NCBI GenBank assembly: GCA_902765395.1
Contig: CACWZP010000002.1
Location: forward strand, 124,001-188,000
Length of the DNA stretch: 64,000 bases
Source: an uncultured Eubacteriales bacterium
GTDB lineage: Bacteria > Bacillota > Clostridia > Christensenellales > Aristaeellaceae
Direction: 5' to 3'
Shown piece by piece: positions 42,225 to 61,340 of this stretch. The position numbers and the translations under genes are program-made. The notes under the pieces were generated by a model. That model saw nothing but the letters and a program-made list of their open reading frames with translations. It was not told where the DNA came from and made no database searches. Every line of letters starts with the position of its first letter. Position 1 is the first letter of the stretch.

Positions 42225-42542
42225 ATCGGGGGCGCAGCTCCCGATGACGAATCGTGCCCGGCGGCGTGTACGGCGGGCACGGGCCATTTTTGCGGCGGGC
42301 AGCTTGTCGACCAGAGCAAAAATGGCTTCATTGCAGATTTGCCGACCGGAGATTTCCGGCGGTTGGATCCAGTCGGTCCAGTAAGTTTCAACCGGCGGGA
42401 ATCTCAAGGCAAATCTGTCAAAGGGGTGGTAAAGGCAACAAACCCGTTGGGTTTGTTGGTCCAGTCGAAGACTGGACTGCCGACGGCTCAAATCGAAGAT
42501 TTGAGGCGCGACACCGTTGGCGGGGGAAGCAGGTCCCCCGCC
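42225..42542 (-). repeat. Dispersed hairpin-chain element B, copy 1
   Basis: The 353-bp gap between glutamine synthetase and miaA is filled by consecutive hairpins. Core (42283-42542): GCCATTTTTGC/GCAAAAATGGC; CAGATTTGCC/GGCAAATCTG (42334, 42408); CAACAAACCC-GTT-GGGTTTGTTG (42436-42458); GTCCAGTC-GAA-GACTGGAC (42459-42477); CTCAAATC-GAA-GATTTGAG (42487-42505); GGCGGGGGA/TCCCCCGCC (42519-42542). Further hairpins lie at 42225-42245 and 42254-42280. Matches 61127-61340, where several stems differ but remain paired. No protein is encoded. The GC-rich end abuts the glutamine synthetase stop. Confidence 0.82.
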
Positions 42543-42545
42543 ACT

Positions 42546-44633
42546 TTACTTTACACTGTACAGCACGTCGATCATGCTGGGATAGGGCCACTCGGCCTTG
42601 GGCGTCATGGCCTCGCAGGCGTCGCAGGCGGCGCGCAGGGCGTTCATCGCGCCAACCACGTCGTCCTTGTAGCGCATGGCGCGCTCCAGGGAATCCTCGG
42701 CGGCGTCCGCGTGGTGCAGGGCCTCGCCCAGGGTGCTGCAAATGGCGTAGATCTCGTCCGTCAGGCGGGACAGCTCCCGGCAGCGGGCCTTCTCATAGCC
42801 GCAGGCCACGCCGGCGACATCGCCCTTCACCCGGGCGTTTTCGCACAGCTTCGCGCTGAACGCGCTCACCGCGGGCAGTATGTTCCGGCCTACCATGTCC
42901 ATCAGGGTCTGGGCCTCGATGTGGATGATGTGCACGTAGTTCTGCAGCAGTATCTCGTAGCGGGAGCGCAGCTCGGCCGCGCTGAACACGCCGTGCTCCT
43001 CGAACAGCTTCACGTTCTTGCCGTCCAGCAGGTGCGCCAGGGCCTCGGGCGTGGTCTTCAGGTTCATCAGCCCGCGCCGTTCGGCCTCCCGGGGCCAGTG
43101 GTCGTCATAGCCGTTGCCGTTGAACAGGATGCGCTTGTGCTGCTTGATGGTCCGCTGGATCAAATCGTGCAGCGCCGCGGTGAAGTCTTCCGCGCCCTCC
43201 AGCTCGTCGGCGAACTGCCTGAGGCTCTCGGCCACGGCGGTGTTGATGACGATGTTGGGCTTGGCGATGGACTGGCTGGAGCCGGGGCTTCGGAATTCAA
43301 ACTTGTTGCCGGTGAAGGCGAAGGGGCTCGTGCGGTTGCGGTCCGTGGAGTCCTTGGGGAAGCGGGGCAGCACATCCACGCCGATCTTGATCTGCTCCTC
43401 GTCGTGGCCGCCGTAGGGCGCGTCGTGCTCGATGGCCTCCAGCACCTCCGTCAGCTCGTCGCCCAGGAACAGGCTCATCACCGCCGGCGGCGCCTCGTTC
43501 GCGCCCAGGCGGTGGTCGTTGCCCGCCGTGGCCACGGAGATGCGCAGCAGGTCCTGATAGTCGTCCACGGCCTTGATGACCGCGCAGAGGAACAGCAGGA
43601 ACTGGGCGTTTTCAAAGGGCGTGGTGCCCGGGTCCAGCAGGTTCACGCCGTCGCGGGTGGCGATGGACCAGTTGTCGTGCTTGCCGGAGCCGTTCACCCA
43701 GGAGAAGGGCTTTTCGTGCAGCAGGCACACCATGCCGTGGCGATGGGCGATCTTCTGCATCAGCTCCATGGTCAGCTGGTTGTGGTCGGCGGCGATGTTG
43801 GCGGTGGTGAAGATGGGCGCCAGCTCGTGCTGGGCGGGGGCCACCTCGTTGTGCTCGGTCTTGGCCAGAATGCCAAGCTCCCACAGCTCGTCGTTCAGCT
43901 CCTGCATGAACGCCTGCACCCGGGGCTTGATGATGCCGTAATAGTGGTCCTCCAGCTCCTGGCCCTTGGGGGGCTTCGCGCCCAGCAGCGTGCGGCCGGT
44001 GAGCATCAGGTCCTCCCGGGCGTCCACCATGCCCTGGTCCACCAGGAAGTATTCCTGTTCGCTGCCCACGGTGGTCACCGGCGCGGGGCCGTCGTAGCCG
44101 AACAGCTTCAGCACCCTCAGCGCCTGACGGCTGATGGCCTCCATGCTGCGCAGCAGGGGCGTTTTCATGTCCAGCGCCTCGCCGCCGTAGCTGCAAAAGG
44201 CTGTGGGGATGTAGAGCACGGTGTCCTTGATGAAGGCATAGCTGGTGGGGTCCCAGGCGGTGTAGCCCCGGGCCTCGAAGGTGCTGCGCAGGCCGCCGGA
44301 GGGGAAGGAGGAGGCGTCGCTCTCGCCCCGCACCAGCTCCTTGCCGGAGAACTCCATGATCACGCCGCCGTCGCCGTTGGGGCTGATGAAGCTGTCGTGC
44401 TTCTCGGCGGTGATGCCGGTCATGGGCTGGAACCAGTGGGTGAAGTGGGTGGCGCCCTGCTCGATGGCCCAGTCCTTCATGGCGTTGGCGACGATGTTGG
44501 CGATGCCCAGGTCCATGCGCTTGCCCTCGCTGATGCAGCGCAGCATCTCCCGATAGGTGTCCTTCGGCAGGCGCTGGCGCATGGTGGCGAGGTTGAAGAC
44601 CTTGGCGGCAAAGCGATTGGCGACGTCGTTCAT
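42546..44633 (-). CDS. glnN: Glutamine synthetase type III
   Basis: Makes glutamine from glutamate, ammonia and ATP; a dodecameric type III enzyme common in Clostridia and Bacteroidetes. 695 residues, the type III length. N-terminal [23 protein letters not shown] and the type III-specific [19 protein letters not shown] are present, as are the catalytic [10 protein letters not shown] and [16 protein letters not shown] segments. ATG 44633 chosen by AAGGAGTGATCCGC; an in-frame ATG three codons earlier overlaps this site. It has its own promoter and is followed by element B. Confidence 0.97.
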
Positions 44634-44650
44634 GCGGATCACTCCTTGGA

Positions 44651-44692
44651 AAAATTAGGAATGAGGAATGAGGAATCAGGAATGAGGAATGA
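44651..44692. repeat. GAATGAG iterated word in the glutamine synthetase leader
   Basis: Four to five copies of the heptamer GGAATGA (with one GGAATCA) between promoter and start codon of the glutamine synthetase gene. It is the same word that forms the arms of the snap-back repeats at 15298 and 19673, but no opposing arm is present, so this may be a half element. Confidence 0.7.
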
Positions 44693-44746
44693 CAAGCAGT
44701 CCGCAGGCCCGAATCCTCTTGATGAGCATACATATTAATATCCAAC

Positions 44747-44775
44747 ATTTTATGACACTGTCGCCGATTTTTCAA
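44747..44775 (-). promoter_or_regulatory. Promoter of glutamine synthetase
   Basis: Minus-strand TTGAAA (44775-44770), 17-bp spacer, TAAAAT (44752-44747). It leaves an unusually long leader of about 105 nt that contains the GAATGAG repeat. Confidence 0.7.
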
Positions 44776-44828
44776 GCGGGGATGGGGGAGTAAATGGGGA
44801 ATGTTTGTAAAATGTTGCGTGAAACAAA

Positions 44829-44895
44829 AAGTCCTTCGCCGCGCCCGGAATGACAGCGATACAAAACGCGTCATCCTGAGCACGGCGAAGGATCT
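44829..44895. repeat. GTCATCCTGAGC / AAGGATC palindromic repeat
   Basis: AGTCCTTCGCCG and AATGAC on one side pair with GTCAT and CGGCGAAGGATCT on the other; the centre carries GCGTCATCCTGAGC. Words of this kind are widespread as short dispersed palindromes in diverse bacterial genomes. It lies in the 332-bp gap between the phosphoribosyltransferase and glutamine synthetase, where no gene is visible. Confidence 0.65.
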
Positions 44896-44965
44896 GTGCA
44901 TTCCGGGCATGAAGCCCATTGGATCAGAAAGCGAACCCTTCACAATCCAATCCAAACTCTCAACT

Positions 44966-45529
44966 CTAATCCAGAGGCTGCCCCTTGCTGTTGAACAGCG
45001 GCAGCTTCTCCAGGTAGATGATGTCCTCCCGCCGGGTGGCGTCGCCCTCGGCCAGGATCGCCATGCGGCCCACGATGTTGCCGCCGGCCTGCTCAACCAG
45101 TTCCTCCAGTGCGCGCAGGGATTCGCCGGTGGAGATCACGTCGTCCACGATCACTACGCGCCTGCCCTTCATGTATTCGGCGTCCTTGCCGTCCAGGCAC
45201 AGGGTCTGCTTGTGGTTGGTGGTGATGGAGCGCACCTCCACGGTCATGACGTCCTTCATGTACAGCTTCGGGGCCTTGCGGGCCAGCACATAGCGCTCGT
45301 TGCCGTTCAGCCGGGCCATCTCGCAGATCAGAGGGATGCCCTTGGACTCGGCGGTGATCAGCACGTCGTGCTCCGGGCAGCGCGCAAGCAGCTCCCTGGC
45401 GCAGGCGGTGGTCAACTCCGGGTCACCGAAGATCACGAACGCGCCGATCATCAGCTTGTCGCTGATGGGGCAGAGGGGCAGGTCGCGGTCCAGGCCCGCG
45501 ATGTTCATCCGGTAAGCCATGTCACTCAT
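44966..45529 (-). CDS. Phosphoribosyltransferase (adenine/xanthine PRTase-like)
   Basis: Type I PRTase of 187 residues. The PRPP-binding motif VVIVDDVISTGESL is intact, and the flexible loop and base-binding hood (MNIAGLDRDLPLCPISDKLMIGAF; VLITAESKGIPLICEMARLNG) resemble adenine phosphoribosyltransferase. It would salvage a purine base to its monophosphate in the cytoplasm. The start follows GAGGTGCGAAT. It lies downstream of a secreted CAP protein gene, with no obvious metabolic partner. Base specificity is not certain. Confidence 0.87.
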   Translation of the reverse strand: MSDMAYRMNIAGLDRDLPLCPISDKLMIGAFVIFGDPELTTACARELLARCPEHDVLITAESKGIPLICEMARLNGNERYVLARKAPKLYMKDVMTVEVRSITTNHKQTLCLDGKDAEYMKGRRVVIVDDVISTGESLRALEELVEQAGGNIVGRMAILAEGDATRREDIIYLEKLPLFNSKGQPLD

Positions 45530-45583
45530 ATTCGCACCTCATTTATATGTATGTACAGCGATCAATCCAGTCAAATTCTACCA

Positions 45584-46828
45584 TCATTGTCCGGCTTTGT
45601 CAATCACGGAAAGGGCACAGGCGTCGGTATATCCGCCCGCGCTTTCCACGATGATTTCACATTTGCCGGGACCGACGGCGATGACGTTTCCGGAGCCGTC
45701 CACTGTGGCCACGGATTCGTCCGTGCTGCGCCAGGCGACGGTCAGGTCGTCGGCGTAGGCGGGGATCACGTCTGCGGCGAGTCGCAGCTCATCCCCCGGA
45801 GCAAGCTCTGCTTCCAGCTGGGAGATCTCCACGTTCACCACGTCCTGAGCGGTCAGCGAGACCATGTCCACCTCGTACTCGATGGGCGCGTCTTTCCCGC
45901 TCACGTCCACCAGACCGTCCACGCGCACCGTCCAGACCTGGTTTTGCTGGTAGTCGGTGAAGCCCGTGCCGGCGAAGTCCGGCCGGAAGATCAGGCAGGG
46001 ACCGGTGCCGTAGCCCTCCAGGTTCAGGGCGCAGAAGCCGTCGCCGTCGCCGCCGATCGGGTCAAAGGCGAAGGTCAGCCCGCCCTGCTCCGAGAGCGTC
46101 ACCACGGGCCGGGACGCGGCCAGGTCGTATGCACCGGGGTTCAGCATGATGGACCAGGCCAGGTGGTCGTGCATCAGCTCGGCGGGGAAGGCCCCGGCGG
46201 CGGGCCAGGCCACGCTGGTCCAATCCGCCTCCCCGGCCAGGTCGTGGGCGTACATCACCACATAGGTGTTGCCCGAGGCGGAGTTCGCCAGCCCGAAGCC
46301 GGTGCCCGACATCTCCGGCGTCAGCGCCCAGCGGCGGTGCCCCAGCGTGGGCAGGTTCTCCTCGCCGTCGTCCCGCAGGAAGTACTCCACGCCCTCCCGC
46401 AGGATGGTGGGCCGCATCCAGTTGAGGCGCGCGATGTTGGAGGCGGAGGTGGCGGTGTGGGCGGACTCGTAGAAGTCGTCGTCCATGTCGGCGGGCTGCG
46501 GGGCGTCGTGATCCACGTAGTCCAGCGCCGCCAGCAGCACCGCTCCGTGCTGGCAGCGGAAGTTGTACAGCGGCAGCAGGCGCACGCCGTCAAGCCCCGC
46601 CAGCCACCGGGCGAAGTTCAGGTAGTCAAGGGCGTCTTCCCGGGCCGCCTCCGTCAACTCGCCCTCGGCATAGGGGGCGGAAACGGCGGGCTCCGCCAGG
46701 TAGGGCGATTCGCTGCCGGCGTTGCCCAGCGCGCCGTAGGCCTCGCGCACCTCGTCCCGGGTGTGGGCATGGGCGGGCAGCGCGGCCAGCGCGAGGGCCA
46801 GCAGTATCGTCAATAGGGCTCTTTTCAA
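45584..46828 (-). CDS. Secreted CAP-domain protein with Ig-like (Big2) domain
   Basis: About 414 residues. A signal peptide (ending PAHA) is followed by a CAP/SCP-type domain (about 50-270; YLNFARWLAGLDGV, CQHGAVLLAALDYVDH, TLGHRRWALTPEMSGTGFG) and a C-terminal bacterial Ig-like domain (about 320-410; VNVEISQLEAELAPGDELRLAADV ... WRSTDESVATVDGSGNVIAVGPG). CAP proteins act at the cell surface; enzymatic function is unclear. The best start is TTG at 46828, seven bases after AAAGGAG; a GTG at 46849 lacks a site. Next to another Big2-domain secreted protein gene. Confidence 0.88.
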   Translation of the reverse strand: MKRALLTILLALALAALPAHAHTRDEVREAYGALGNAGSESPYLAEPAVSAPYAEGELTEAAREDALDYLNFARWLAGLDGVRLLPLYNFRCQHGAVLLAALDYVDHDAPQPADMDDDFYESAHTATSASNIARLNWMRPTILREGVEYFLRDDGEENLPTLGHRRWALTPEMSGTGFGLANSASGNTYVVMYAHDLAGEADWTSVAWPAAGAFPAELMHDHLAWSIMLNPGAYDLAASRPVVTLSEQGGLTFAFDPIGGDGDGFCALNLEGYGTGPCLIFRPDFAGTGFTDYQQNQVWTVRVDGLVDVSGKDAPIEYEVDMVSLTAQDVVNVEISQLEAELAPGDELRLAADVIPAYADDLTVAWRSTDESVATVDGSGNVIAVGPGKCEIIVESAGGYTDACALSVIDKAGQ

Positions 46829-46867
46829 CGCATTTCTCCTTTGTTCCACTGAGCGACCGGGACGCGG

Positions 46868-51066: not shown

Positions 51067-54000
51067 ATGAGAATGAATCGTTTGATGGCGCTGCTGCTCA
51101 CACTGGTGATGCTGTGCGTATCCACCGGTGGGGCGCTGCCCGCGCTCGCGGAGAGCGAACCGGGGCAGACGGCGGCCGTGGAGGCCGCCAAGACTGTGGA
51201 GCCTGAAGAGGCCGAAGCGCCCGAGGAAACCGGCGAGCCCGAGGAGACCGAGGTGGCCCTGGGGCTCGATGAGGACGAGGAAGCGGAAGCATCCGAGGAG
51301 ACCGAGGCAGAGGCGTCTGAGGGAACCGAGGCCGCCAGGGATATCGCCGCGCCGGAAGAGGGCGAGGCAGCCGGGGAACCCGCGGAAGCGGAGGCAGCCG
51401 GGGAATCCGTGGAGGCAGAGGTCTCCGTGGAGACCGAGGCACCCGAAGCGGGCGAAGCGGCCGACGCGCCTGTGGAGAACGAGCCGTCCGGCGAAGCCGG
51501 GGCCGCGGAGACCGTCGAGGCGGAAGAACCCGCCGGGGACGCGGAGGATGCCGAGTACAGCGAGGACGTGGAAGACTCCATCCCCGAGGCGTCGGAGGAC
51601 GCCATCGCCGAGGAGACCGGCCTGACCGTGGACGACTCCGACGACGAAGCGCTCCCGCCCGACGGGGAAGAGGAGCTGCCGGAGGAGGAACCGCAGGAAT
51701 CCACCGACGAGACCAACGACCTGCCGGCGCTCCCGGCGCTGGGCGAGGGCCTGACCTTCGCCGAAAGGCTGCTGCTGGTGGCAGGAACCCAGCGCGGCTA
51801 TGCCGCCGTGGAGGCCAATTTCGTGCTGGACGAGGCCGGCGTGCGCCACAGCTGGAGCGCCTATGGCGCGAAGTACGGCAAGGACTACGAGCCCTGGAGC
51901 GCAATGTTCGCCGCCTATGTGCTGGACGCTGCGGGTATCCCCGACGAGGCCCTGTGCCGCGGAACCGACGCAGGCCAGTGGATCGCCGCCCTGGGCGGGA
52001 AGTTCGTTTCCGCCGGCAGCGGCTACGCGCCTGAAGCGGGCGACCTGGTGTTCTTTGAACGGGTCGAGAACGAAGAAAAACAAACCGACGTCGGTATTGT
52101 ATCCGCCGCGAGCGACAGCGGCTTCACCGCCATCGAGGGCGACGTGAACGGCAAGGTGGCCGCCACGTCCCACAGCCTGGGCGACGGCGACATCCTGGGC
52201 TATGTGTCCATGGCCGACATCATGCGGGAGTGGGATCCCGTGTATGTCCACCGCCTGCTGGCGGATTCCCTGGCCGAGCGCACCATCTCCGCCCAGGCGG
52301 GCGAGCAGGTGATCGAGATCAGCGGCATGCTGCCCCCGGACGCCACGGTGCAGGTGGTGGAGATCCCGGTGGAGACTGCCGAGCAGATCGTGGCCGCCGC
52401 TTCTGGCGACGCGGAGCGCCAGGTGGTGTTCGCCTACGACATCAGCATCTTCTATAATGGAGAGAAGTACCAGCCCGTCGCCTTCGGCGAGAGCGTGCGC
52501 GTGAGCGTGAAGAACGTGCGCCCCTCCATGCCGGGGCTGGAGGGCGAGCTGCTCCACGCGGGCATGGACGTGACCGACGGCAGCGGCAGCCTGAATGGGG
52601 AAGCCCTGCAGGCGCTGACGGACGGCGTACAGTCCAACGCCGTGTCGACCGAGGTCATCGACGCCCAGAGCACGTCGGAGGGCATCGCCTTTGAGGTGGA
52701 CAGCTTCTCCACCTTCATCTACAGCGAGCCCACGTGCCCGTTTCAGGTGGAGGCGGATGACCAGAGCCATATTTCCTATAACGCAGACACCAAGATTCTG
52801 ACCATCAGCGGCGGTAGCGTTACCATCCGCAACGCCAGCGGCGTGGACGTGGCCGACGCGCGCATCGAAGTGACCGGAGACGCCACGGTGATTCTGGACG
52901 GCGTGAATGTGAAGCCCGCGGAGGAAGCCCCGGCCATGAAGATCGCCTCCACCGCGACGGCGACCGTGACCCTGGCCGACGGCAGCGACAACAAGCTGAG
53001 CGGCACCGGCGAATACGCGGGCCTGCAGGTCGGCTGGGACAGCGCCGATCAATTTGCCCGCCTGACCATCGACGGCAGCGGCGCCCTTGAGGCCGTCGGC
53101 GGCTCGAAATCCGCCGGCATCGGCGGCAGCAAGAGCGACAAGGGCGTCTATGGCGACATTACCATCCAGTCCGGCACGATCACCGCCAGGGGCGAGAGCG
53201 ATGGTGCGGGCATCGGAAGTTCCGGCAACCCCAACGGCGGGAAGTCCAACGGTTCGTTCAAGCATACGGATCAGACGTGGGGCACGATCACCATCAATGG
53301 CGGCACGATCAAGGCCTATGGCGGCACGAGCGACAACGGCGGCGCCGGCATCGGCGGCGGCAACCATGTGGACAGCGGCCTGATCATCATCAACGACGGC
53401 GATATCTATGCCACCGGCGGCGGCGCCGGCATCGGCACGTCCATCGGCTCCAGCAAGAACAAGGGCAACGACGCCGACAAGGGCCCCGGCTATTACTTTG
53501 CCACCGTCGAGATCAACGGCGGTACCATCGTGGCCGAAGGCGGTTCCTACAATTCTGCGGGCATCGGCGGCGGCATGTACTGTGACGCCGAAGTCGTGAT
53601 CACCGGCGGCAACATCACTGCGACCGGCGGCCCGGGCAACCCCAACTACCATCACGGTGGGGCGGGCATCGGCGGCGGCTATGAGGGCCACGGGAAGGTC
53701 ACCATCAGCGGCGGCACGGTCAACGCTACAGGCGGCGGCACGGCTGCGGGCATCGGCGCGGGCGGTTCTCCCAATGGGAAGCCCGAACGCGGTATCTACG
53801 GCCGCGGCGATGCCCAGCGTTTGAACCAGACTACGGTTCAGATCAGTGGCGGCACCGTGACGGCTCGGGCGGGCGAACGCGGCGGCGCGGGCATCGGCGG
53901 CAGCGACGGCTCGGACAAGGTGACCGTTCACATCACCGACGGCGTGGTTGAGGCCTTCGGCTCGGCTTCGTCGAGAGCGGACAAGAAGGGTGGCGCGGGC

Positions 54001-56556
54001 ATCGGCAGCGGCTACAACGCGGTGGATGAATCCGGCGAAGCCAAGTATATCGTGGATACGGCCACGGACGTCACCATCACCGGCGGCTCGGTGAAGGCCG
54101 TTGGCGGCTGGGGCGCGGCGGGCATCGGCTCAGGCGCCCTGAACGAGCGCGCCAGCGTGACCGTCTCCGGCGGCAAGGTGCTGGCCGAATCCGACGGCAC
54201 CAAGTTTGCCGTGGACACCAAGGCGTATAACGACGGCAATGTGCAGGACTATGGCGTCACCCAGCATTTCGCGCAGAGCGTGTCCGGCGTGTACCAGGGC
54301 ACCTTCGTGGACCTGGCCAGCGGCGTCTATGAGGACCTGAATGTCACCGTTTCCGGCGCGACCTACAGCGGCGGTGCGGCGTTCACCCTGCCCGAGGGCT
54401 ATCGCTCCTTCGCGGTCTCGGTGAACGGCGACGCTACCCATACCGTGCAGTCCGGCGGCGATTACTTCGCTGCGGGCAACCGGGAATTCGCCATCGAGAC
54501 CGCAAAGAATCCGATTCCCGACGCGGGTCATCGGTTCTCCGTCACGGACGACAACTGGGACTACTTCTACCTGTCCCCGGCGGCGCAGGTCAAGGCGACA
54601 AAGGTCTGGGACGACCAGGAGAACAGGTACGGCACTCGTCAGGCCATCACGCTGAAGCTGGTCGATGGAGAAGGGAAGGACCTGCCCATCGACGGGAAGA
54701 CCATCCCGGCGGGCGCGACCGGCGAGGCGCTGAGCGTCGTCTGGGACAACCTGATGAAGTACAGCGGCACGCCCGATTCGGCCAACCAGTTTGGGGTGGT
54801 CGAGGCGGGCACCGTGCCCGGCTATAAGCCGGCTGTGATCGAGAAAGTGGACGATGAAGACTGCGCCTACGCGTGCAGGGTCACCAATACCCTCCAGACC
54901 GGCAGCATCAGCGTGACCAAGAAGGTCACCGGCGTGCCCGCGGACAGGCTGCCCGCCGACGCCGCGTTTACCTTCTCCGTCACGGGCGTGGACGATCCGT
55001 CCATCACCGCGACGCTGACCGTCAAGGCCGGCGAGACCGGGACCACCGGCGCGCTGCCGCTGGGCAAGTACACCGTCAGCGAGACGGCGGTCGCACAGAT
55101 CGGTGGCTTCAGACTGACGACGAAGGCCGCCGACAGGACCGTGGAGCTCACGACGGACGGCGAAGCGGTGGCTGTCGAGGCGGAGAACGTCTACGAGGAG
55201 ATCCTGGGCACGCTGACGCTGACGAAGGTGGCCGAAGGCGCCGAGACGCCGGCAGACGCGGAATTTGCGGTGACTGGTCCGAACGGCTACAGCCAGACGA
55301 TCAAGTACAGCGAATTCAGGGACGGCAGATACGCGCTGACCGGCCTGAAGCCGGGCGCGTATGAGGTGAAGGAGAGCGGCGCCGAGGTTGAAGGCTTCAC
55401 GCTGGATACGAGCTATTCCAATGGCGGCAGGGCGACGCTGACCGAGGCGGCGCCGGACGGCGCGGTGACGGTGACCAACACCTACACGCCCGCCACGACG
55501 CCCACCCCCACGCCGACCCCGACGCCCACTCCGACGCCCACTCCGACCCCGACGCCTACTCCGACGCCTACTCCGACGCCGACGCCGACGCCCACTCCGA
55601 CGCCGACGCCCACCCCCACGCCTGTACCGGTGGTTGAGGTGGTGCCGGATCCCACTCCCGTGCCCGTGACCGACATCAGCGGCACCAAGGTGTGGTCGGA
55701 TGAGAGCAACGCCCACAACACAAGGCCTGCGAATATCACCATCAACCTGTACGCCAACGGCACCCGAGTGAACGCCACGCCCACCTGGACGAGTAGGGAC
55801 GGCAATGTCTGGAGCTACACCTTCAGCAACCTGCCCGCGGTGAACGAGGCCGGCGCGACCATCAGCTACACAGTCAGCGAACAGCCGGTGCCGGGCTACA
55901 CCAGCAGCGTCAGCGGCACCACCATCACCAACACGCTGATCCCCCAGGATCCCAAGGAGAATGTGACCATCTCCGGCGTCAAGTCCTGGTCGGACAACGA
56001 CAATGCCGCGGGCGTCCGTCCCACGTCCGTCACCGTGCACCTGCTGCGCGACGGCGTGGAAGTGGACCAGACGAGCGCCACGGCCGCGAACGACTGGAGC
56101 TACAGCTTCGGAAGCGTGCCCGCGGATGATGGCTATGGCCACAACTATACCTACACCATCCGTGAGGACGCCGTCAGCGGCTACTTTGCCCGCTATGACG
56201 GCTACAACGTGACCAACACGCTGCTGTTGGTGGATGTGCCCAGCAACGACCCCGACAATCCCAACTACAGCAACAATACTCCGAACGATCCCGACAATGA
56301 GCTGACCGCCCAGAAGGTGGCCCGCATCCCCGAACGCAAGACCAGCACCCCGCCCCCGGTGTTCACCACCGTGGACGAGGAGGGGATGGGCGACTTCATG
56401 GACATCATGGACTACAGCACGCCTTTGTTCGGCGACCTGCTGTCCACAGGGGACGAAACCCCCGTCTGGCCCTGGGTGTTCGCGGGGCTTGGCATGCTGG
56501 CGCTGGCGCTGGCGACCGTCCTCGGCCGCAAACGCAGGCGCGGCGATAACCGATAA
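51067..56556 (+). CDS. Giant cell-wall surface protein: pseudo-CHAP, beta-helix, Cna-B domains
   Basis: 1829 residues. Signal peptide (to about 30); Glu/Ala-rich low-complexity region (about 35-225); CHAP-like domain (about 231-385) in which the catalytic Cys is S278 (PWSAMF) and the His position is D341 (TDVGIV); a linker (about 400-555); a Gly-rich parallel beta-helix with repeated GGAGIGGG turns (about 559-1050); three Cna-B/SpaA-type domains from about 1174, 1278 and 1380; a Thr-Pro repeat stalk (about 1478-1520); two more Cna-B domains from about 1534 and 1633; and a C-terminal sorting-like signal LLSTGDE (1791-1797), hydrophobic span (about 1799-1820) and RKRRR tail. Probably a sortase-anchored adhesin on a long stalk. 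Domain roles are inferred from sequence pattern. Confidence 0.88.
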   Translation: MRMNRLMALLLTLVMLCVSTGGALPALAESEPGQTAAVEAAKTVEPEEAEAPEETGEPEETEVALGLDEDEEAEASEETEAEASEGTEAARDIAAPEEGEAAGEPAEAEAAGESVEAEVSVETEAPEAGEAADAPVENEPSGEAGAAETVEAEEPAGDAEDAEYSEDVEDSIPEASEDAIAEETGLTVDDSDDEALPPDGEEELPEEEPQESTDETNDLPALPALGEGLTFAERLLLVAGTQRGYAAVEANFVLDEAGVRHSWSAYGAKYGKDYEPWSAMFAAYVLDAAGIPDEALCRGTDAGQWIAALGGKFVSAGSGYAPEAGDLVFFERVENEEKQTDVGIVSAASDSGFTAIEGDVNGKVAATSHSLGDGDILGYVSMADIMREWDPVYVHRLLADSLAERTISAQAGEQVIEISGMLPPDATVQVVEIPVETAEQIVAAASGDAERQVVFAYDISIFYNGEKYQPVAFGESVRVSVKNVRPSMPGLEGELLHAGMDVTDGSGSLNGEALQALTDGVQSNAVSTEVIDAQSTSEGIAFEVDSFSTFIYSEPTCPFQVEADDQSHISYNADTKILTISGGSVTIRNASGVDVADARIEVTGDATVILDGVNVKPAEEAPAMKIASTATATVTLADGSDNKLSGTGEYAGLQVGWDSADQFARLTIDGSGALEAVGGSKSAGIGGSKSDKGVYGDITIQSGTITARGESDGAGIGSSGNPNGGKSNGSFKHTDQTWGTITINGGTIKAYGGTSDNGGAGIGGGNHVDSGLIIINDGDIYATGGGAGIGTSIGSSKNKGNDADKGPGYYFATVEINGGTIVAEGGSYNSAGIGGGMYCDAEVVITGGNITATGGPGNPNYHHGGAGIGGGYEGHGKVTISGGTVNATGGGTAAGIGAGGSPNGKPERGIYGRGDAQRLNQTTVQISGGTVTARAGERGGAGIGGSDGSDKVTVHITDGVVEAFGSASSRADKKGGAGIGSGYNAVDESGEAKYIVDTATDVTITGGSVKAVGGWGAAGIGSGALNERASVTVSGGKVLAESDGTKFAVDTKAYNDGNVQDYGVTQHFAQSVSGVYQGTFVDLASGVYEDLNVTVSGATYSGGAAFTLPEGYRSFAVSVNGDATHTVQSGGDYFAAGNREFAIETAKNPIPDAGHRFSVTDDNWDYFYLSPAAQVKATKVWDDQENRYGTRQAITLKLVDGEGKDLPIDGKTIPAGATGEALSVVWDNLMKYSGTPDSANQFGVVEAGTVPGYKPAVIEKVDDEDCAYACRVTNTLQTGSISVTKKVTGVPADRLPADAAFTFSVTGVDDPSITATLTVKAGETGTTGALPLGKYTVSETAVAQIGGFRLTTKAADRTVELTTDGEAVAVEAENVYEEILGTLTLTKVAEGAETPADAEFAVTGPNGYSQTIKYSEFRDGRYALTGLKPGAYEVKESGAEVEGFTLDTSYSNGGRATLTEAAPDGAVTVTNTYTPATTPTPTPTPTPTPTPTPTPTPTPTPTPTPTPTPTPTPTPTPTPVPVVEVVPDPTPVPVTDISGTKVWSDESNAHNTRPANITINLYANGTRVNATPTWTSRDGNVWSYTFSNLPAVNEAGATISYTVSEQPVPGYTSSVSGTTITNTLIPQDPKENVTISGVKSWSDNDNAAGVRPTSVTVHLLRDGVEVDQTSATAANDWSYSFGSVPADDGYGHNYTYTIREDAVSGYFARYDGYNVTNTLLLVDVPSNDPDNPNYSNNTPNDPDNELTAQKVARIPERKTSTPPPVFTTVDEEGMGDFMDIMDYSTPLFGDLLSTGDETPVWPWVFAGLGMLALALATVLGRKRRRGDNR

Positions 56557-56601: not shown

Positions 56602-56789
56602 GTTGATAAAGCCAGCAAACGCAGAGATTTCCTTGAAAGATGCTTGCGCGGAGGAAATTTCTGCTTTCTGCGTCAGGACAGCCTGCCAATTCGGTTACTT
56701 ACGTCTGTGTAAGCGCCCTCATTGGCAGGCTGTCCTTCCTTGTCTTGCAGGCTTTCTCAACGGCCTGCCAGTCAGTTGACTTTGTCAAC
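56602..56789 (+). repeat. Dispersed structured element A, copy 2
   Basis: 188 bp closely related to 14084-14270. Terminal inverted repeats TTGATAAAG (56603) and CTTTGTCAA (56780-56788); outer stem AAAGCCAGCAA/TTGCAGGCTTT (56608, 56745); hairpin GCAGAGATTTCC/GGAAATTTCTGC (56621, 56653); long perfect hairpin GGACAGCCTGCCAAT/ATTGGCAGGCTGTCC (56676-56690, 56721-56735) with a CTTAC/GTAAG inner stem. It sits between two identical terminator hairpins in the 410-bp gap before marR. No gene is visible. Confidence 0.8.
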
Positions 56790-56795
56790 ATCCTG

Positions 56796-56826: not shown

Positions 56827-56871
56827 CTTGTCCATGAACCTGATTTTAACCCAAATCCCTTTCCCGGCCCC

Positions 56872-56900
56872 TTGACCGGCGGGGATGGGGGTGCTATAAT
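56872..56900 (+). promoter_or_regulatory. Promoter of the marR-ABC exporter operon
   Basis: TTGACC (56872-56877), 17-bp spacer, consensus TATAAT (56895-56900). Near-consensus, so repression by MarR is needed for control. Confidence 0.85.
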
Positions 56901-56901
56901 G

Positions 56902-56929
56902 ATTAACGCGTTAACGATAAACGTGTTAA
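56902..56929. promoter_or_regulatory. Two MarR boxes
   Basis: Direct repeats ATTAACGCGTTAA (56902-56914) and ATAAACGTGTTAA (56917-56929), 15 bp apart; the first contains the perfect palindrome TTAACGCGTTAA. They overlap the predicted transcription start, fitting autorepression by the MarR protein encoded 40 bp downstream. Confidence 0.75.
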
Positions 56930-56966
56930 TTGTCTGAAATCGACCCATTGAAAGGAAGGCTCGGAC

Positions 56967-57443
56967 ATGGAGGAATACGAGCGCGTCAAGGACAATATCG
57001 ACCTGCTGATCCACACCATGCGGCTGCATCACCGCATCGTGGAGAAGCGGGTGGAGGGCCTGGGGGTGCACCACGGGCAGCATCGCATGCTGATGAAGGT
57101 GTCGTGTCTGGGCAAGAGCGCCTCCCAGAAGGCGCTGGCCGAGGCCATGGACGTGAGCCCCGCCAACGTGGCGCGGGCGCTGAAGCAGCTGACTGCCGCG
57201 GGCCTCATCGAAAAGGCCGAAGGCGCGGATGGCCGCTGCAACGAGATTAGCCTGCTGCCGGAGGGCCAGGCGCTGGTGGAGAATTCCCGGGCCATCTTCC
57301 GGGAGATCGGCGCGGAGATGTTCGAGGGCGTCAGCGAAGGCGAGATGGAGGCCCTGGGCGGCATCCTGCGCAAGATCCAGGCCAACCTTGTGAATATGGA
57401 GCGGGGCGAGGGGGAACCCTCCGTCGCCGCTGAGAGGAGATGA
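56967..57443 (+). CDS. MarR family transcriptional regulator
   Basis: 158 residues, winged-helix MarR fold. The HTH is GKSASQKALAEAMDVSPANVARALKQLTAAGLIEKAEGADGRCNEI, with the wing residues D and R in ADGRCNEI. The start follows GAAAGGAAGGCTCGGAC. It is the first gene of an operon with two ABC exporter subunits and overlaps the next reading frame, a common arrangement in Clostridia where the repressor responds to the exported drug or bile-type compound and derepresses the pump. The ligand is unknown. Confidence 0.93.
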   Translation: MEEYERVKDNIDLLIHTMRLHHRIVEKRVEGLGVHHGQHRMLMKVSCLGKSASQKALAEAMDVSPANVARALKQLTAAGLIEKAEGADGRCNEISLLPEGQALVENSRAIFREIGAEMFEGVSEGEMEALGGILRKIQANLVNMERGEGEPSVAAERR

Positions 57444-57451
57444 CGGGGCGA

Positions 57452-59182
57452 ATGAAGTGGAGTAAGTATGTCAAGCCCTATTGGAAGTACTTTGTGCTGG
57501 GTCCGCTGTGCATGATCGTGGAGGTGCTGGGCGAGATCATCATGCCCAAGCTGTACTCCCAGATCCTGAATGTGGGCGTGGAGACCCACAACGTGGGTTA
57601 TATCGTGGTTACCACGCTTTTGATGATCCTGACCGCTGTGCTGATGATGGGCGGCGGCGTGGGCGGCGCCTACTTCGGCGCCAAGGCGGCGGTGAACTTC
57701 GCCTCTGACCTGCGCCGGGACGTGTACGGCAAGGTGCAGCAGTTCTCCTTCGCCAACATCGACAAGTATTCCACCGGTTCGCTGGTCACCCGTCTGACCA
57801 ACGACATCACCCAGCTCCAGAACTTCGTGAACATGATGCTGCGCATGTTCCTGCGCGCCCCGGGCATGCTTATCGGCGCGCTGATCATGGCCATCGCCAT
57901 GAACCCGGAGCTGGCGCGGGTGCTGGCCGTCACCATCCCGGTGCTGCTGGCCGTGGAATTCCTGGTGATACGCACCGGCTTCCCGCGCTTCACCGCCATG
58001 CAGGAGAAGATCGACAAGCTGAACTCCAACATCCAGGAGAGCCTGACCAACATCCGCGTGGTCAAGAGCTTCGTGCGTGAGGACTACGAGGCCAGGAAAT
58101 TCCGCAAGTCCAACGGCGATTTGAAGGACGCCGCGCTGCGGGCGTTGAACGTGGTCATATTCATGATGCCCATCATGATGCTGCTGATGAACTTCACCAG
58201 CATGGCCGTGGTGTGGTTCGGCGGCAACCAGGTCATCGCAGGCAAGATGCCCGTGGGCGACTTCTCCGCCTTCCTGACCTACATCACCCAGATATTGATG
58301 TCGCTGATGATGCTGTCCATGCTGTTCATGAACTCCTCCCGCGCGCTGGCTTCGGGCCGCCGCGTGAAGGAGGTCATGACCGAGCAGATCGACCTGACCG
58401 ACGAGGACGCCGCCCATAAGGACGCCCGCGTGGAAAAGGGCGACATCGAGTTCAGGAACGTGTCCTTCCGCTACTACAAGAACTCCGAGCATCCGGTGCT
58501 CTCGGACATCAACCTGAAGATCAAAGCCGGCCAGACCGTGGGCATCATCGGCTCCACCGGCTGCGGCAAGACCACGCTGGTGTCCATGATCCCGCGCCTG
58601 TACGACGTGGACGCGGGCCAGGTGCTGGTGGACGGCATCGACGTGAAGGACTACAGCCTGTTCCACCTGCGCGAAGGCGTGGGCATGGTGCTGCAGAAGA
58701 ACGTGCTGTTCTCCGGCTCCATCGCCGACAACCTGCGCTGGGGCGACGAGAACGCCACCGAGGCCCAGATGGCCGAGGCGGCCCAGAGCGCCCAGGCCGA
58801 CGGCTTCATCCGCTCCTTTGCCCAGGGCTATCAGACGGAGCTGGTGCAGGGCGGCCAGAACGTGTCCGGCGGCCAGAAGCAGCGACTGTGCATCGCCCGC
58901 GCGCTTTTGAAGCACCCGAAGATACTGATCCTGGACGACTCCACCAGCGCCGTGGACACCGCCACCGAGGCCTCCATCCGCGAGGCGTTCCGCAACGAGC
59001 TGAAGGACGCCACGAAGCTGATCATCGCCCAGCGCATCACCTCCGTGCAGGAGGCGGACATGATCGTGGTCATGGACGACGGCGCCATCACCGGCGTGGG
59101 CACCCACGACGAGCTGCTGGCCTCCAACCAGGCCTATCAGGAGATCTACAACTCCCAGATGTCCGGAAAGGAGGCGGCGTAA
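57452..59182 (+). CDS. ABC exporter subunit 1 (permease-ATPase half transporter)
   Basis: 576 residues: six-span membrane domain (about 1-310) and nucleotide-binding domain (about 330-570). Walker A GSTGCGKTT, signature NVSGGQKQR, Walker B LILDDSTSAVD. In Walker B the catalytic Glu is replaced by Asp (LDDS), the hallmark of the degenerate half of heterodimeric exporters such as BmrC/LmrC/TM287. Start placed at 57452 (MKWSKYVKPYWKYF); an ATG at 57440 overlaps the marR stop but sits directly on the AGAGGAG site. Functions only with subunit 2, encoded next without a gap. Confidence 0.94.
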   Translation: MKWSKYVKPYWKYFVLGPLCMIVEVLGEIIMPKLYSQILNVGVETHNVGYIVVTTLLMILTAVLMMGGGVGGAYFGAKAAVNFASDLRRDVYGKVQQFSFANIDKYSTGSLVTRLTNDITQLQNFVNMMLRMFLRAPGMLIGALIMAIAMNPELARVLAVTIPVLLAVEFLVIRTGFPRFTAMQEKIDKLNSNIQESLTNIRVVKSFVREDYEARKFRKSNGDLKDAALRALNVVIFMMPIMMLLMNFTSMAVVWFGGNQVIAGKMPVGDFSAFLTYITQILMSLMMLSMLFMNSSRALASGRRVKEVMTEQIDLTDEDAAHKDARVEKGDIEFRNVSFRYYKNSEHPVLSDINLKIKAGQTVGIIGSTGCGKTTLVSMIPRLYDVDAGQVLVDGIDVKDYSLFHLREGVGMVLQKNVLFSGSIADNLRWGDENATEAQMAEAAQSAQADGFIRSFAQGYQTELVQGGQNVSGGQKQRLCIARALLKHPKILILDDSTSAVDTATEASIREAFRNELKDATKLIIAQRITSVQEADMIVVMDDGAITGVGTHDELLASNQAYQEIYNSQMSGKEAA

Positions 59183-61033
59183 ATGGCGAGGAACCTCGAC
59201 ACCCTGCGCAAGCAGTACAACAGCGCCGCCGCCCCCAGCGGACGCGGCCCCATGGCCGCCACCAACAACTTCAAGGGCAAGCCCAAGCACTCCCGACAGA
59301 CCGTGTCCCGCATCCTGGGCTATGTGAGCCGCTACAAGGGCCGGCTGGTGCTGGTGTTCCTGTGCATGCTGCTGAGCACCGCGGCCTCCCTGGCGGGCAG
59401 CTACGTGCTGCGCCCGGTGATCAACAACATCGCCGACGCCTCCACCTCCGCGGCGGATCGCGTCAGCTACCTGGCCATGATGCTGGGCGTGCTGGCGGCC
59501 ATCTACATCGTGGCCGTGGTGGGCAGCTGGCTGCAGTCCAAGCTGATGATCGGCGTGTCCCGCAACGCCATCCAGCAGATCCGAGACGACCTGTTCACCA
59601 AGGTGGAGCAGCTGCCCCTGCGCTTTCACGACAACGAGACCACCGGCGACCTGATGAGCCGCTTCACCAACGACGTGGACAACATCGGCATGATGCTGGA
59701 CCAGTCGCTGATGAGCATGGTCTCCGGCATCATCAACCTGGTGGGCACGCTGGCCATGATGATCTATACCAACATCTGGCTGACGCTGATCACGCTGGTG
59801 TTCATCCCCATCTTCGCCATCGGCGGCCGGGTCATCATCGGAAAGTCCCGCAAGTACTATTCCGCCCAGCAGGCGGCCCTTGGCGCGGCCAACGGCTATA
59901 TCGAGGAATCCGTGGCGGGGCAGAAGGTAGTCAAGGTGTTCAACCACGAGCAGGACTGCGTGCAGGAGTTCGACCTGCTGAACGACGACCTGCGCGACAA
60001 GCAGCAGAAGGCCATGTTCTTCGGCGGCATCATGGGCCCCATCATGGGCAACACCACCCAGATCAGCTATTCCCTCACCGCTGGCATCGGCGGCGTGCTG
60101 TGCGCCCTGGGCCGGTTCGACGTGGGCGGCCTGGCCATCTTCGTGAACTACGCGCGCCAGTTCTCCCGCCCCATCAACGAGATCTCCCAGCAGATGGCCA
60201 CCATCTTCTCCGCCCTGGCCGGCGCGGAGCGGGTGTTCAGCCTGATGGACAAGGAGCCGGAGGCGGAGGACGCCCCCGACGCCGTGCTGCCCGAGAAGCT
60301 GGAGGGACACGTGATCCTGGACGACGTCAGCTTCGGCTATGTGCCGGAGAAGACGGTGCTGAAGCACATCAGCCTCTATGCCAGGCCAGGCCAGAAGATC
60401 GCCTTCGTGGGCTCCACCGGCGCGGGCAAGACCACCATCACCAACCTGCTGAACCGGTTCTATGACATCGACTCCGGCAAGATCACCATCGACGGGATCG
60501 ACATTAAAAAGCTGCCCCGGGACTACCTGCGCAAGAACATCGCCATGGTGCTGCAGGACACCCACCTGTTCACAGGCACCATCATGGAGAACATACGCTA
60601 TGGCCGGCTGGACGCCACCGACGAGGAGGTCATCGCCGCGGCGAAGACCGCCAGCGCCGACAGCTTCATCCGCCGCCTGTCCGACGGCTACAACACCATG
60701 ATCGAGGGCGACGGCGCGAACCTGTCCCAGGGCCAGCGGCAGCTGCTGAACATCGCCCGCGCGGCAATCAGCAAGGCGCCGATCCTGGTGCTGGACGAGG
60801 CCACCAGCTCCGTCGACACCCGCACCGAGCGCCACATCGAACACGGCATGGACCGCATCATGGCCACGCGCACCACATTCGTCATCGCCCACCGCCTGTC
60901 CACCGTCCGCAACGCGGCGGCCATCATGGTGCTGGAGAACGGCGAGATCATCGAGCGCGGCAGCCACGACGACCTGCTGGCCATGAAGGGCAGGTATTAC
61001 GAGCTGTATACCGGCAAGAGCGAATTGACCTGA
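59183..61033 (+). CDS. ABC exporter subunit 2 (permease-ATPase half transporter)
   Basis: 616 residues. An N-terminal extension of about 40 residues precedes the six-span domain (about 45-360); the nucleotide-binding domain has canonical Walker A GSTGAGKTT and Walker B LVLDEATSSVD with the catalytic Glu, but the signature is NLSQGQRQ instead of LSGGQ. In a heterodimer, the subunit-1 LSGGQ pairs with this Walker A/B to form the active site. The ATG follows the stop of subunit 1 directly (TAA-ATG), preceded by GGAAAGGAGGCGGCG. Substrate probably a drug, peptide or lipid. Confidence 0.95.
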   Translation: MARNLDTLRKQYNSAAAPSGRGPMAATNNFKGKPKHSRQTVSRILGYVSRYKGRLVLVFLCMLLSTAASLAGSYVLRPVINNIADASTSAADRVSYLAMMLGVLAAIYIVAVVGSWLQSKLMIGVSRNAIQQIRDDLFTKVEQLPLRFHDNETTGDLMSRFTNDVDNIGMMLDQSLMSMVSGIINLVGTLAMMIYTNIWLTLITLVFIPIFAIGGRVIIGKSRKYYSAQQAALGAANGYIEESVAGQKVVKVFNHEQDCVQEFDLLNDDLRDKQQKAMFFGGIMGPIMGNTTQISYSLTAGIGGVLCALGRFDVGGLAIFVNYARQFSRPINEISQQMATIFSALAGAERVFSLMDKEPEAEDAPDAVLPEKLEGHVILDDVSFGYVPEKTVLKHISLYARPGQKIAFVGSTGAGKTTITNLLNRFYDIDSGKITIDGIDIKKLPRDYLRKNIAMVLQDTHLFTGTIMENIRYGRLDATDEEVIAAAKTASADSFIRRLSDGYNTMIEGDGANLSQGQRQLLNIARAAISKAPILVLDEATSSVDTRTERHIEHGMDRIMATRTTFVIAHRLSTVRNAAAIMVLENGEIIERGSHDDLLAMKGRYYELYTGKSELT

Positions 61034-61065
61034 TCGAGGGGGATAAGGCATTTTCCCAGGAGGCC

Positions 61066-61133
61066 TCGGAGGGCGTAAGCCCTCCGACATCAATCGGGCC
61101 TGACGACATGTGCGTCAGGCCCGTGAGCTTTTT
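61066..61133 (+). terminator. Two hairpins ending the exporter operon
   Basis: TCGGAGGGC-GTAA-GCCCTCCGA (61066-61087) is followed by GGGCCTGACG/CGTCAGGCCC (61096-61122), then GTGAGC and seven T. The second is a good intrinsic terminator; it leads directly into element B copy 2. Confidence 0.8.
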
Positions 61134-61340
61134 TTCGGAGGAAAATCCCATTTTTCCGGAGAAAAAGCTTTCCTTGCAGATTTTGCGGCTGGACCCCTTC
61201 AGGGTTCAAGCAAAATCTGGAGGGGGGAGCAAGGCGGCAAACCCAGCGGGTTTGTCGACCCAGCCAAAGACTGGACTGCCGCAGCACAAATCAAGATTTG
61301 AACCGCGGCACCTCGTGGCAGGGGAGCTTGCTCCCCCGCC
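61127..61340 (-). repeat. Dispersed hairpin-chain element B, copy 2
   Basis: Related to 42283-42542. Stems: GCTTTTT/AAAAAGC (61127, 61162); CAGATTTTGC/GCAAAATCTG (61177-61186, 61210-61219) enclosing a GACCC/GGGTT hairpin; CAAACCC-AGC-GGGTTTG (61238-61254); a CCAG/CTGG hairpin (61259-61274); CAAATC-AA-GATTTG (61287-61300); GGGGAGC-TT-GCTCCCC (61321-61336). The GC-rich end again abuts the stop of a minus-strand gene (61345). Together with the terminators it fills the 311-bp gap; no gene is visible. Confidence 0.82.

Follow-up and report, generated by a model that had tools for sequence, protein, structure and literature searches.

Two composite chains of hairpins behind minus-strand genes

The window, which is the whole 64,000-nt stretch of DNA analysed, contains two copies of a chain of hairpins, designated element B. 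With the flanking hairpins included, copy 1 (42207-42543) follows a glutamine-synthetase-like gene and copy 2 (61049-61342) the gene of a Cys-rich protein. The stop codons of both upstream genes are on the minus strand, and element B was therefore read on this strand. The order in both copies was stop codon, 2 nt, H1, a nested three-hairpin repeat, a linker and H2 to H5 (Table 1), with a length of about 300-340 bp including the nested repeat. A sequence-only reading of the window had placed a GC-rich hairpin within a few bases of each stop codon, in agreement with the position of H1. On the other side, the miaA gene (42192-41296, minus; miaA by model) begins 14 nt beyond the 3' end of copy 1, and a convergent plus-strand ORF (59183-61033) ends 15 nt from that of copy 2.

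Table 1. Features of the two window copies of element B, listed in minus-strand order
Feature	Position	Strand	Remarks
Copy 1 H1, GC-rich hairpin TGGCGGGGGACCTGCTTCCCCCGCCA	42518..42543	minus	2 nt past stop codon (42546-42548) of glutamine-synthetase-like gene
Copy 1 nested three-hairpin repeat	42430..42517	minus	between H1 and H2; separate dispersed repeat
Hairpins inside copy 1 nested repeat	42487-42505, 42460-42476, 42436-42458	minus
Copy 1 conserved linker CCACCCCTTTGA	42418..42429	minus
Copy 1 H2, stem CAGATTTGCC/GGCAAATCTG	42334..42417	minus	inner part TTGAG...CTCCGG, long apical arm
Copy 1 H3	42283..42326	minus
Copy 1 H4 (CGTGCCCGCCGTACACGCCGCCGGGCACG), then ATT	42253..42281	minus
Copy 1 H5 (42225-42245) and 3' end CCCCCTGCAAAATCAGTG	42207..42245	minus
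Copy 1 covariance-model (CM) match	C2:166251-166417	minus	113.8 bits
Copy 2 H1	61316..61342	minus	2 nt past stop codon (61345-61347) of Cys-rich protein gene
Copy 2 nested three-hairpin repeat	61230..61315	minus
Copy 2 linker	61220..61229	minus
Copy 2 H2, short apical form	61177..61219	minus
Copy 2 H3	61126..61169	minus
Copy 2 H4	61095..61123	minus
Copy 2 H5 (61066-61088) and 3' end	61049..61088	minus
Copy 2 CM match	C2:185093-185219	minus	117.4 bits

Both chains reported earlier were present, and on both strands they folded far more strongly than chance (z -7.5/-8.2 and -7.2/-6.2), with 0 of 200 shuffles equally good. The limits first given for them, 42283-42542 and 61127-61340, marked real copies but left out H4 and H5. 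The hairpins taken as a single chain were also real, but they form a composite. A separate repeat, nested between H1 and H2, accounts for the three GAA-loop hairpins and the CCAGTC core that they carry. At other places in the genome (L007, L012 and L045) this repeat was found without the element core, and at the glutamine-synthetase/miaA junction it was missing from the copy in G013. The CCAGTC-GAA-GACTGG motif, proposed as a search core, belongs to the nested repeat and not to the core of the element.

A scan for intrinsic terminators around copy 1 (42180-42640) gave two matches on the plus strand, including H1, where 0.6 were expected; on the minus strand, that of the gene, no GC hairpin with a T run was found in this interval. 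An existing Rfam description had been named as a refutation. With Rfam 15, no family other than a distant tRNA reached the gathering score in the window, and five loci searched at E up to 1 gave five matches, all below gathering score. Integron attC core sites have the form GTTRRRY/RYYYAAC and lie behind cassette genes. Inspection of element copies by eye did not reveal such sites, and the integron idea was given up.

Dispersal and orientation of the copies

The CM search found 21 dispersed core copies in the genome, where the sequence-only reading had counted two. The upstream gene was on the same strand in all 21. Among copies between co-directional genes, 18 were sense and 0 antisense in this genome, 74 and 8 in congeners, and 26 and 3 in other genera. 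These counts are based on a home-made codon-usage gene caller, the calls of which are doubtful downstream of L048 and upstream of L204. The congeneric set consisted of 103 rows after removal of 5 weak opposite-strand overlaps, and 96 of these had a called upstream gene. The position relative to genes was thus non-random, as had been proposed. Replication-strand bias as the cause of the orientation was disfavoured by two copies on opposite strands 5 kb apart (G000:C4 217182 minus, 222007 plus).

The element was present in 24 of the 28 genomes of the genus, this one included, at 0 to 116 matches per genome. Under strict filters, no match was found in 16 genomes of other families. A survey of the order, also with strict filters and with 8 candidates scored per genome, gave lower bounds: the same anatomy occurred in other genera and families in at least 30 of 396 genomes (3 from the own genus) and at least 21 of 142 genera. 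The unpaired signatures (the TTGAG/CTCCGGYCG inner loop, CAAGG, GTACATGCCGCC and CGATTG) recurred across families. The core was also found in three viral_contigs stretches.

At least 12 of the 21 copies had a counterpart behind the same gene in G018. The flanking genes resemble core genes, among them miaA, identified by model, and gyrB/gyrA and pta/ackA, recognised by eye. At the glutamine-synthetase/miaA junction, of which 26 loci were read, the chain was present in 3 genomes; 7 genomes had both genes within about 95 nt and no chain, and in 4 the same gene was followed by different palindromic repeats. The presence of the element behind a given gene therefore differs between species.

Evolution of the stems

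The stems vary yet stay paired, as was first noticed in the two window copies: 545 double-change cells were counted, compared with 144 in shuffles. Changes were then classified in 34 same-gene copy pairs, 12 of them against G018 and 22 against other species; these were pairs of retrieved loci in which both members carry the element. In this set, where several copies of the own genome entered more than once and the alignment was fitted to the model, one-sided changes from a Watson-Crick pair led to G-U in 17 cases, to A.C in 19 and to other mismatches in 28. Direct switches between Watson-Crick pairs made up 88 double changes. There were also 11 other double changes, and 2 one-sided changes between non-Watson-Crick states. 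An earlier G-U test based on cell counts was judged weak, its outcome hinging on three dubious apical pairs (G-U 83, A.C 2): it gave G-U 106 and A.C 71 with these pairs, and G-U 23 and A.C 69 without them. The classification by copy pairs, in which all 34 pairs were used, was preferred to it.

Change per site between the own genome and G018, the closest genomes, was 0.031 at paired and 0.063 at unpaired positions. Between the own and other species it was 0.162 and 0.217, respectively. At the glutamine synthetase junction, none of the 34 pairs differed between the own copy and that of G013, although by glutamine synthetase identity the own species is closer to G018 than to G013.

This agreement with the more distant species, together with the Watson-Crick to Watson-Crick switches lacking G-U steps, would fit maintenance of the stems through template-switch (quasipalindrome) correction, or through gene conversion among the copies, instead of selection on the fold. 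Palindrome correction would leave unexplained the unpaired signatures that recur across families, and we consider this explanation somewhat unlikely.

A cis-acting RNA in the 3'-UTR or between cistrons is unlikely. The co-transcribed chain would here protect or process mRNA, or insulate transcription, and selection at each locus would keep the stems. The absence of a G-U excess among the one-sided changes (17 against 19 A.C and 28 others) argues against RNA-type tolerance, and the 88 direct switches look as if hairpins had been exchanged or re-inserted. The varying presence between species and the range of 0 to 116 matches per genome also speak against such an RNA, and the inverted ends and duplicated hairpins of the relatives described below are marks of mobility. 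It would fit the strong sense orientation in this genome, in congeners and in other genera, the excess of double changes over shuffles, the long persistence of copies behind the same genes in G018, and paired sites that change half as fast as unpaired ones in comparison with G018. Of the two possibilities first offered, a 3'-UTR function or a site preference, the position and orientation counts support the second, and the G-U pattern gives no support to the first.

Complete forms in relatives and a model of mobility

In relatives, the same core is embedded in an element that measures about 200 bp and is bounded by inverted ends resembling CAGACTGTCRAAAAA. The inverted-end pattern had 141 matches in 12 genomes, compared with 6 for the reversed control, and 14 of the 30 inverted-end loci fetched also carried a model match. 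The pattern had no match in G346 and G104, though both carry the element.

Among 68 evaluable copies in relatives, 27 had a locus-specific direct repeat on either side, compared with 1 of 340 mismatched-flank controls, at a score threshold of 14 that was set after a first look at the distant-copy repeats. The distant set was taken best-first from the survey, and 67 of 70 matches were kept, three weak or partial ones being dropped; this set also served for the orientation counts in other genera. Of 15 matches in SUG1456, three were omitted: L125, L154 (at a contig end) and L182:2266-2392 (weak). Exclusion of copies with short flanks left 58 of 67 distant copies, of which 18 had repeats, and 10 of 12 SUG1456 copies, of which 9 had them. 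No direct repeat was found in the other 40 distant copies, or in L157, L189 (two) and L134. A perfect stem of at least 7 bp lay inside 19 of the 27 repeats, indicating a palindromic target in the relatives, and the repeats enclosed 201-209 bp in 13 of the 18 repeat-flanked distant copies. The SUG1456 copies combined H1 and linker of the own type with inverted ends and hairpin repeats.

Alternatively, the element may have landed between pre-existing tandem terminators. The repeats are locus-specific, most contain the perfect stem, the enclosed length is nearly constant in those 13 distant cases, and an IS1182 copy (L376) has the same arrangement. In favour of such a landing, three of the repeats (L289, L293 and L295) are long or other than simple hairpins, and the repeat-flanked loci available were all occupied sites. 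On balance, we regard it as distinctly improbable.

REP/BIME elements are palindromic and mosaic and lie at gene 3' ends, as does element B. Unlike them, element B is a larger unit, has inverted ends in its complete relatives, and its copy number is not linked to Y1 transposases. A mosaic of independent REP/BIME-like palindromes mobilised by a RAYT (Y1) transposase, suggested by the nesting and exchange of modules (between H1 and H2, the three-hairpin repeat as well as other inserts) and by Y1 transposases in 16 of the 28 genomes of the genus, this one included, is very improbable and was rejected, because Y1 presence was unrelated to copy number in these genomes (no Y1 in G008 with 54 matches or G020 with 17; nine Y1 matches and no element in G042) and the inverted ends of complete relatives are as in DDE-type elements.

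The window copies are short and non-coding and belong to a family with many dispersed copies. Terminal inverted repeats and target-site duplications, the other marks of MITEs, were seen in the relatives and not in the window type. A direct-repeat score of 15 or more, taken as target-site duplication, was reached by 0 of 21 copies of this genome and by 1 of 96 congeneric copies; a second (L231) scored 14, and the control maximum was 12. One congener, G041, has copies with inverted ends, and no direct repeat was found in their evaluable regions. With up to two mismatches, its inverted end was found in 0 of 94 congeneric copies (none of them from G041) and in 0 of 21 own copies. One genus-level search took in 18 of the 28 genomes, G041 not among them. 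No palindromic target was visible at the window copies. Most examined copies in the genus are thus without inverted ends or target duplication, and we interpreted the window copies, which lack both, as end-less relatives of a MITE-like family. Simple decay would not account for ends lost from a core so well preserved. In 30 loci searched for an autonomous element with G041-type ends, one inward pair was found, 323 bp apart with no gene between; the remaining ends were single or in pairs about 20 bp apart.

One insertion sequence has nearly the same ends. It is a broken IS of 1299 bp (L376/L413), the ends of which differ from the inverted-end pattern at one or two positions, and a near-identical palindrome lies on either side of it. 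Two ORF pieces in it matched NF033551 IS1182 (E 3e-51 and 4e-26), each under the model cut-off. At L408 and L411, IS1182 pieces adjoin such an inverted end and hairpin, the L411 match being weak (E 5e-5). All these ends resemble the distant form, and the transposase is broken or partial in every case. An intact IS1182-type element of this kind would be expected to have CAGNCTGTCRAAAAA ends.

No IS1182 match was found in the own genome, or in G169 and G348, which are rich in the element or its ends. Five of 19 distant genomes had a match, none above the model cut-off. Of 8 IS1182 loci of the genus examined, only L382 had clear inverted ends, and these differ from those of the element; no autonomous partner with matching ends was found for the own genus. 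MAGs tend to lose multicopy genes.

To our knowledge, the pneumococcal BOX, RUP and SPRITE repeats are unrelated to element B, from which they are set apart by description, not sequence. They resemble it as clustered, nested small intergenic repeats (PMC10969869). The same review describes MITEs such as QMITE2 of Coxiella burnetii, in which 5'-truncated copies without repeats and ends come to resemble REPs. Like these, element B is short, non-coding and dispersed, and complete copies have inverted ends and direct repeats. It differs from them in that the target duplicated is often an entire stem-loop downstream of a gene, and in the retention of several conserved-loop hairpins throughout an order of Clostridia that are mostly uncultured. 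The Efa and Ype repeats, stem-loop repeats that favour gene 3' ends according to PMC1590033, are from other hosts and are likened here by description, not sequence. No report of the element B repeat, or of MITEs that duplicate whole terminators, was found in the top-ranked, mostly non-subscription literature.

The IS1182-family element IS1272 is reported to target stem-loops (PMC4923244, PMC5678879). It resembles the present case in its transposase family, found here beside nearly the same ends, and in its hairpin targets without sequence consensus. As reported there, IS1272 replaces or deletes the stem-loop without target duplication, whereas in the relatives studied here the stem-loop is duplicated. 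Stem-loop duplication is drawn as one branch of the IS1272 model (legend of Fig 13 in PMC5678879).

Element B is probably a non-autonomous, MITE-like mobile DNA element of Clostridia from rumen and gut, present in the window in an end-less and probably old form. We infer the transposition chemistry, the mobilisation by an IS1182-type transposase and the descent of the window copies from complete ones. The complete form, as observed in relatives, consists of a terminator-like hairpin of the locus, the left inverted end with a hairpin of its own, H1 in some cases, H2 to H5, the right inverted end and a second locus hairpin. A transposase, of the IS1182 family in some related genera, would take the hairpin behind a gene as its target, and the element would be joined to both feet of this stem-loop, with duplication of the whole hairpin. 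A site preference behind genes is supported, and the relatives show a likely reason for it, their flanking repeats often being hairpins: as such target hairpins lie behind stop codons, so would the inserted element. Compact intergenic spaces would bring H1 within a few nucleotides of the stop codon.

The simplest reason for conservation of the H2-H5 fold throughout the family is that it is required by mobile copies, in DNA or RNA form. After insertion, drift seems to dominate in the copies; the slower change at paired sites between the own genome and G018 could reflect selection on individual copies.

More tentatively, transposition may be guided by structure, with the length of the duplication set by the target hairpin, and the end-less form may by now be a permanent feature of gene 3' ends in the genus. 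If an extruded terminator were cut at both feet of its stem, it would be copied whole, and the upstream gene would keep its own. The derived end-less form would then persist downstream of core genes, for example that of glutamine synthetase, in the sense orientation.

This reading offers a concrete origin for the intergenic multi-hairpin chains of uncultured gut Clostridia, which resemble structured RNAs because of their covariation. The 27 repeat-flanked copies are a natural data set for a question derived from work on IS1272, namely whether duplication of an entire stem-loop is within the reach of IS1182-type transposition. Strong covariation and a fixed 3'-end position are thus insufficient to call such a chain a regulatory RNA.

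Structure and spread of the chain

The two hairpin chains of element B were found where the sequence-only reading had placed them, with H1, the GC-rich hairpin nearest the gene, 2 nt past the stop codon in each. The best reading strand was the minus strand, which is that of the preceding genes. Moving away from the stop codon, H1 is followed by a nested three-hairpin repeat and a linker of CCACCCC type; then come H2, a spacer of CAAGG type, H3, H4, CGATT, H5 and finally a short 3' end. The H4 apex resembled GTACAYGCCGCC or GCACATGTCGCC. Both copies folded better than shuffles by 6 to 8 standard deviations, on either strand.

The trio of small hairpins (GAA-type loops) on which the chain had been thought to be centred belongs to a separate dispersed repeat, which was present without the remaining chain at three loci (L007, L012 and L045). 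These hairpins were missing from the copy at the same glutamine synthetase (GS) junction in the congener G013, which has CCCCCGCCACTGCCACCCC versus CCCCCGCCA-insert-CCACCCC in the window. By eye, the repeat at L012 and L045 lies near TGATTTG-type ends (..GGCAAATCAGAA) similar to the inverted end of congener G041, so it is possibly part of another MITE.

Features of the window
Feature	Position	Remarks
Element B, copy behind GS-like gene	42207-42543	minus strand
Element B, copy behind Cys-rich protein gene	61049-61342	minus strand
Nested three-hairpin repeat	42430-42517; 61230-61315	
Repeat family of AATGAGGAATGAGGAATGAGGAAT type	15294-15354; 19669-19729; 44663-44723	
114-nt direct repeat	14124-14237; 56642-56755	89% identical
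12-nt tandem repeats	55462-55641	coding a Thr/Pro-rich stretch (by eye), inside the large ORF
Large ORF (called)	51085-56556	
Cys-rich protein	61345-62331	minus strand; tail with CxxC..CxxC; NCBIfam and Pfam gave no match at E 0.001

BLAST and the covariance model R1, which spans H2-H4 with 129 positions and 34 pairs and was trained on the own copies, gave 21 core copies in the 3.38-Mb own genome. The element was carried by 22 of 25 genomes of the genus (own included) and two of three additional ones, with 0 to 116 matches per genome; the three zero-match genomes among the 25 stayed at zero with laxer filters. Covariation, proposed earlier as a check, was strong over many copies. An alignment fitted to the structure (108 matches from 100 loci of relatives, five being weak opposite-strand matches) contained 107 distinct rows, in which 95.6% of cells were paired versus 79.1% in shuffles, and 545 cells showed double changes versus 144. 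When the 21 own copies were aligned with MAFFT and the structure was predicted on that alignment, 19 of 34 pairs showed compensatory changes.

Across the order, with eight candidates scored per genome, R1 matched in at least 30 of 396 genomes (three of the own genus) and at least 21 of 142 genera. H2 (inner loop included), H3, H4 and H5 were mostly retained at the 27 distant loci examined, as was the spacer between H2 and H3, here GCAAGG-like; 67 distant copies were kept for further analysis. A pattern scan of genome contigs returned 67 stretches. The 62 with a model match were all Clostridia-type MAGs by their titles; the five without one (two Verrucomicrobia, Opitutae, Alphaproteobacteria and Maritimibacter) were taken as chance. 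Three contigs classed as viral (L425, L426 and L427) contained the element, one of them twice, which could be phage carriage or misfiled host DNA.

Ends and probable target duplications

Many distant copies had inverted ends resembling CAGACTGTCRAAAAA and, outside these, direct repeats that differed between loci. Direct repeats were found at 18 of 58 evaluable distant copies and at 9 of 10 in the related lineage SUG1456, and in 1 of 340 mismatched-flank controls; four more copies inspected (L157, two at L189, L134) had none. Of the 27 direct repeats, 19 held a perfect stem of 7 bp or more, for example those of L322 (35 bp, identical), L312 (27), L321 (24) and L129 (23). Three of the 27 were long or not simple hairpins (L289, about 48 bp; L293, about 113 bp; L295, about 36 bp) and exceeded the usual hairpin repeats in length; by eye, the repeat at L295 seemingly takes in the last codons of a gene on the minus strand. 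Of the 18 distant cases, 13 had 201-209 bp between the repeats. The inverted-end pattern occurred 141 times in 12 genomes searched (10 with a match), versus 6 for the reversed control, and 14 of 30 fetched inverted-end loci also had a model match.

The SUG1456 copies are the link between the distant complete form and the window copies. L129, for example, has a hairpin repeat, then an end hairpin AGCTTGTC..., the H1 of the window as GGTGGACGGGGAAG..., a CCACGGCTACCCTCTC linker, H2-H5, TTTTTCGACCGTCTG and again a hairpin repeat.

The ends of a 1299-bp insertion sequence (L376/L413), CAGCCTGTCGAAAAA and CAGCCTGTCGAGAAA, differed from the inverted-end pattern by one or two letters, and a near-identical palindrome lay at each side of it. 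Two ORF pieces in it matched NF033551 (IS1182 family) at positions 229-456 and 9-99, each under the curated cut-off. Further IS1182 pieces adjoined such an end and hairpin at L408 and, with a weak match (E 5e-5), at L411. All these transposases were broken or partial. Of the 19 distant genomes searched, only five had any IS1182 match; the own genome had none. IS1272, of the IS1182 family, targets stem-loops and is reported to replace or delete them (PMC4923244, PMC5678879); the model figure of PMC5678879 includes a branch in which the stem-loop is duplicated.

Inverted ends were absent from window-type copies (0 of 94 congeneric, none of these from G041, and 0 of 21 own), and no own copy had direct repeats (0 of 21). 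The direct-repeat exceptions among window-type copies were L216 (score 15) and L231 (score 14; control maximum 12). Window-type copies may have lost their ends or may have moved by other means; plain decay would not account for a loss of ends throughout the sampled copies while the core stayed good. G041 had 116 matches, many short and at contig edges. Twenty regions fetched from it start with an end like AAATTCTGATTTGTCG, with the corresponding right end in L439, L442 and L447; its copies with both flanks readable had no direct repeat. In L439-L445 a short unit like CCTAAAGGACTAGCTTCGCGTCGC was inserted in the H2 and H3 loops (L445, H3 only), once in tandem (L443). The G041-type end also lay outside H5 and H4 in L452, from G017. 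With up to 2 mismatches, AAATTCTGATTTGTCG occurred 734 times in G009 and 338 times in G017 (reversed control, 0), two congeners with a very heavy burden of small mobile elements. The own genome had 3 occurrences versus 2 in the control.

Changes in the stems

Copies behind the same gene were compared in 12 own/G018 and 22 own/other-species pairs. One-sided changes from a Watson-Crick pair led to G-U in 17 cases, to A.C in 19 and to other mismatches in 28. The preference for G-U over A.C expected under RNA selection was not seen. The 88 direct changes from one Watson-Crick pair to another look as though subfamilies had been exchanged or re-inserted. A point against this reading is that the rate of change between own and G018 copies was half as high at paired as at unpaired sites (0.031 versus 0.063 per site). 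The fold thus matters to the family, and single copies may still have a role. No host function, the 3'-UTR function proposed from the sequence included, has gained support so far.

Position behind stop codons

Positions relative to stop codons, all from home-made gene calls, were not random. All 21 own copies followed a gene on the same strand, 18 between co-directional genes and 3 called convergent. Among 103 rows of relatives the upstream gene was called in 96 and lay on the same strand in 85; between co-directional genes, 74 copies were sense versus 8 antisense. The stop codon was 40-53 nt ahead of H2 in 64 of the 85 same-strand rows, the space occupied by H1 and the linker. In other genera (n=67), 26 were sense, 3 antisense, 21 convergent and 3 divergent, the remainder being incomplete. 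Orientation follows genes and not replication: contig C4 of the own genome has two copies only 5 kb from each other, one on the minus and one on the plus strand.

At the GS/miaA junction, compared across 26 loci, the chain was present in three (own, G018, G013). GS and miaA lay within about 95 nt of each other without it in seven (G024, G009, G007, G042, G019, G004, G022). Other palindromic repeats stood behind GS in four congeners (G010, G041, G021 and G043; L096, L101, L105 and L099), that of G021 starting with an H1-like TGTGGCGGGGGACC; the region looks like an insertion hot spot. The remaining 12 had different downstream sequence or a contig edge. A G018 counterpart behind the same gene exists for at least 12 of the 21 own copies, so many copies predate the own/G018 split.

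The site preference proposed earlier was supported: target choice is the best explanation for the location of the element behind stop codons. The window copies lack two defining features of a MITE, inverted ends and direct repeats. In relatives the element works like a MITE, and the best name for the window form is an end-less relative within that element family.
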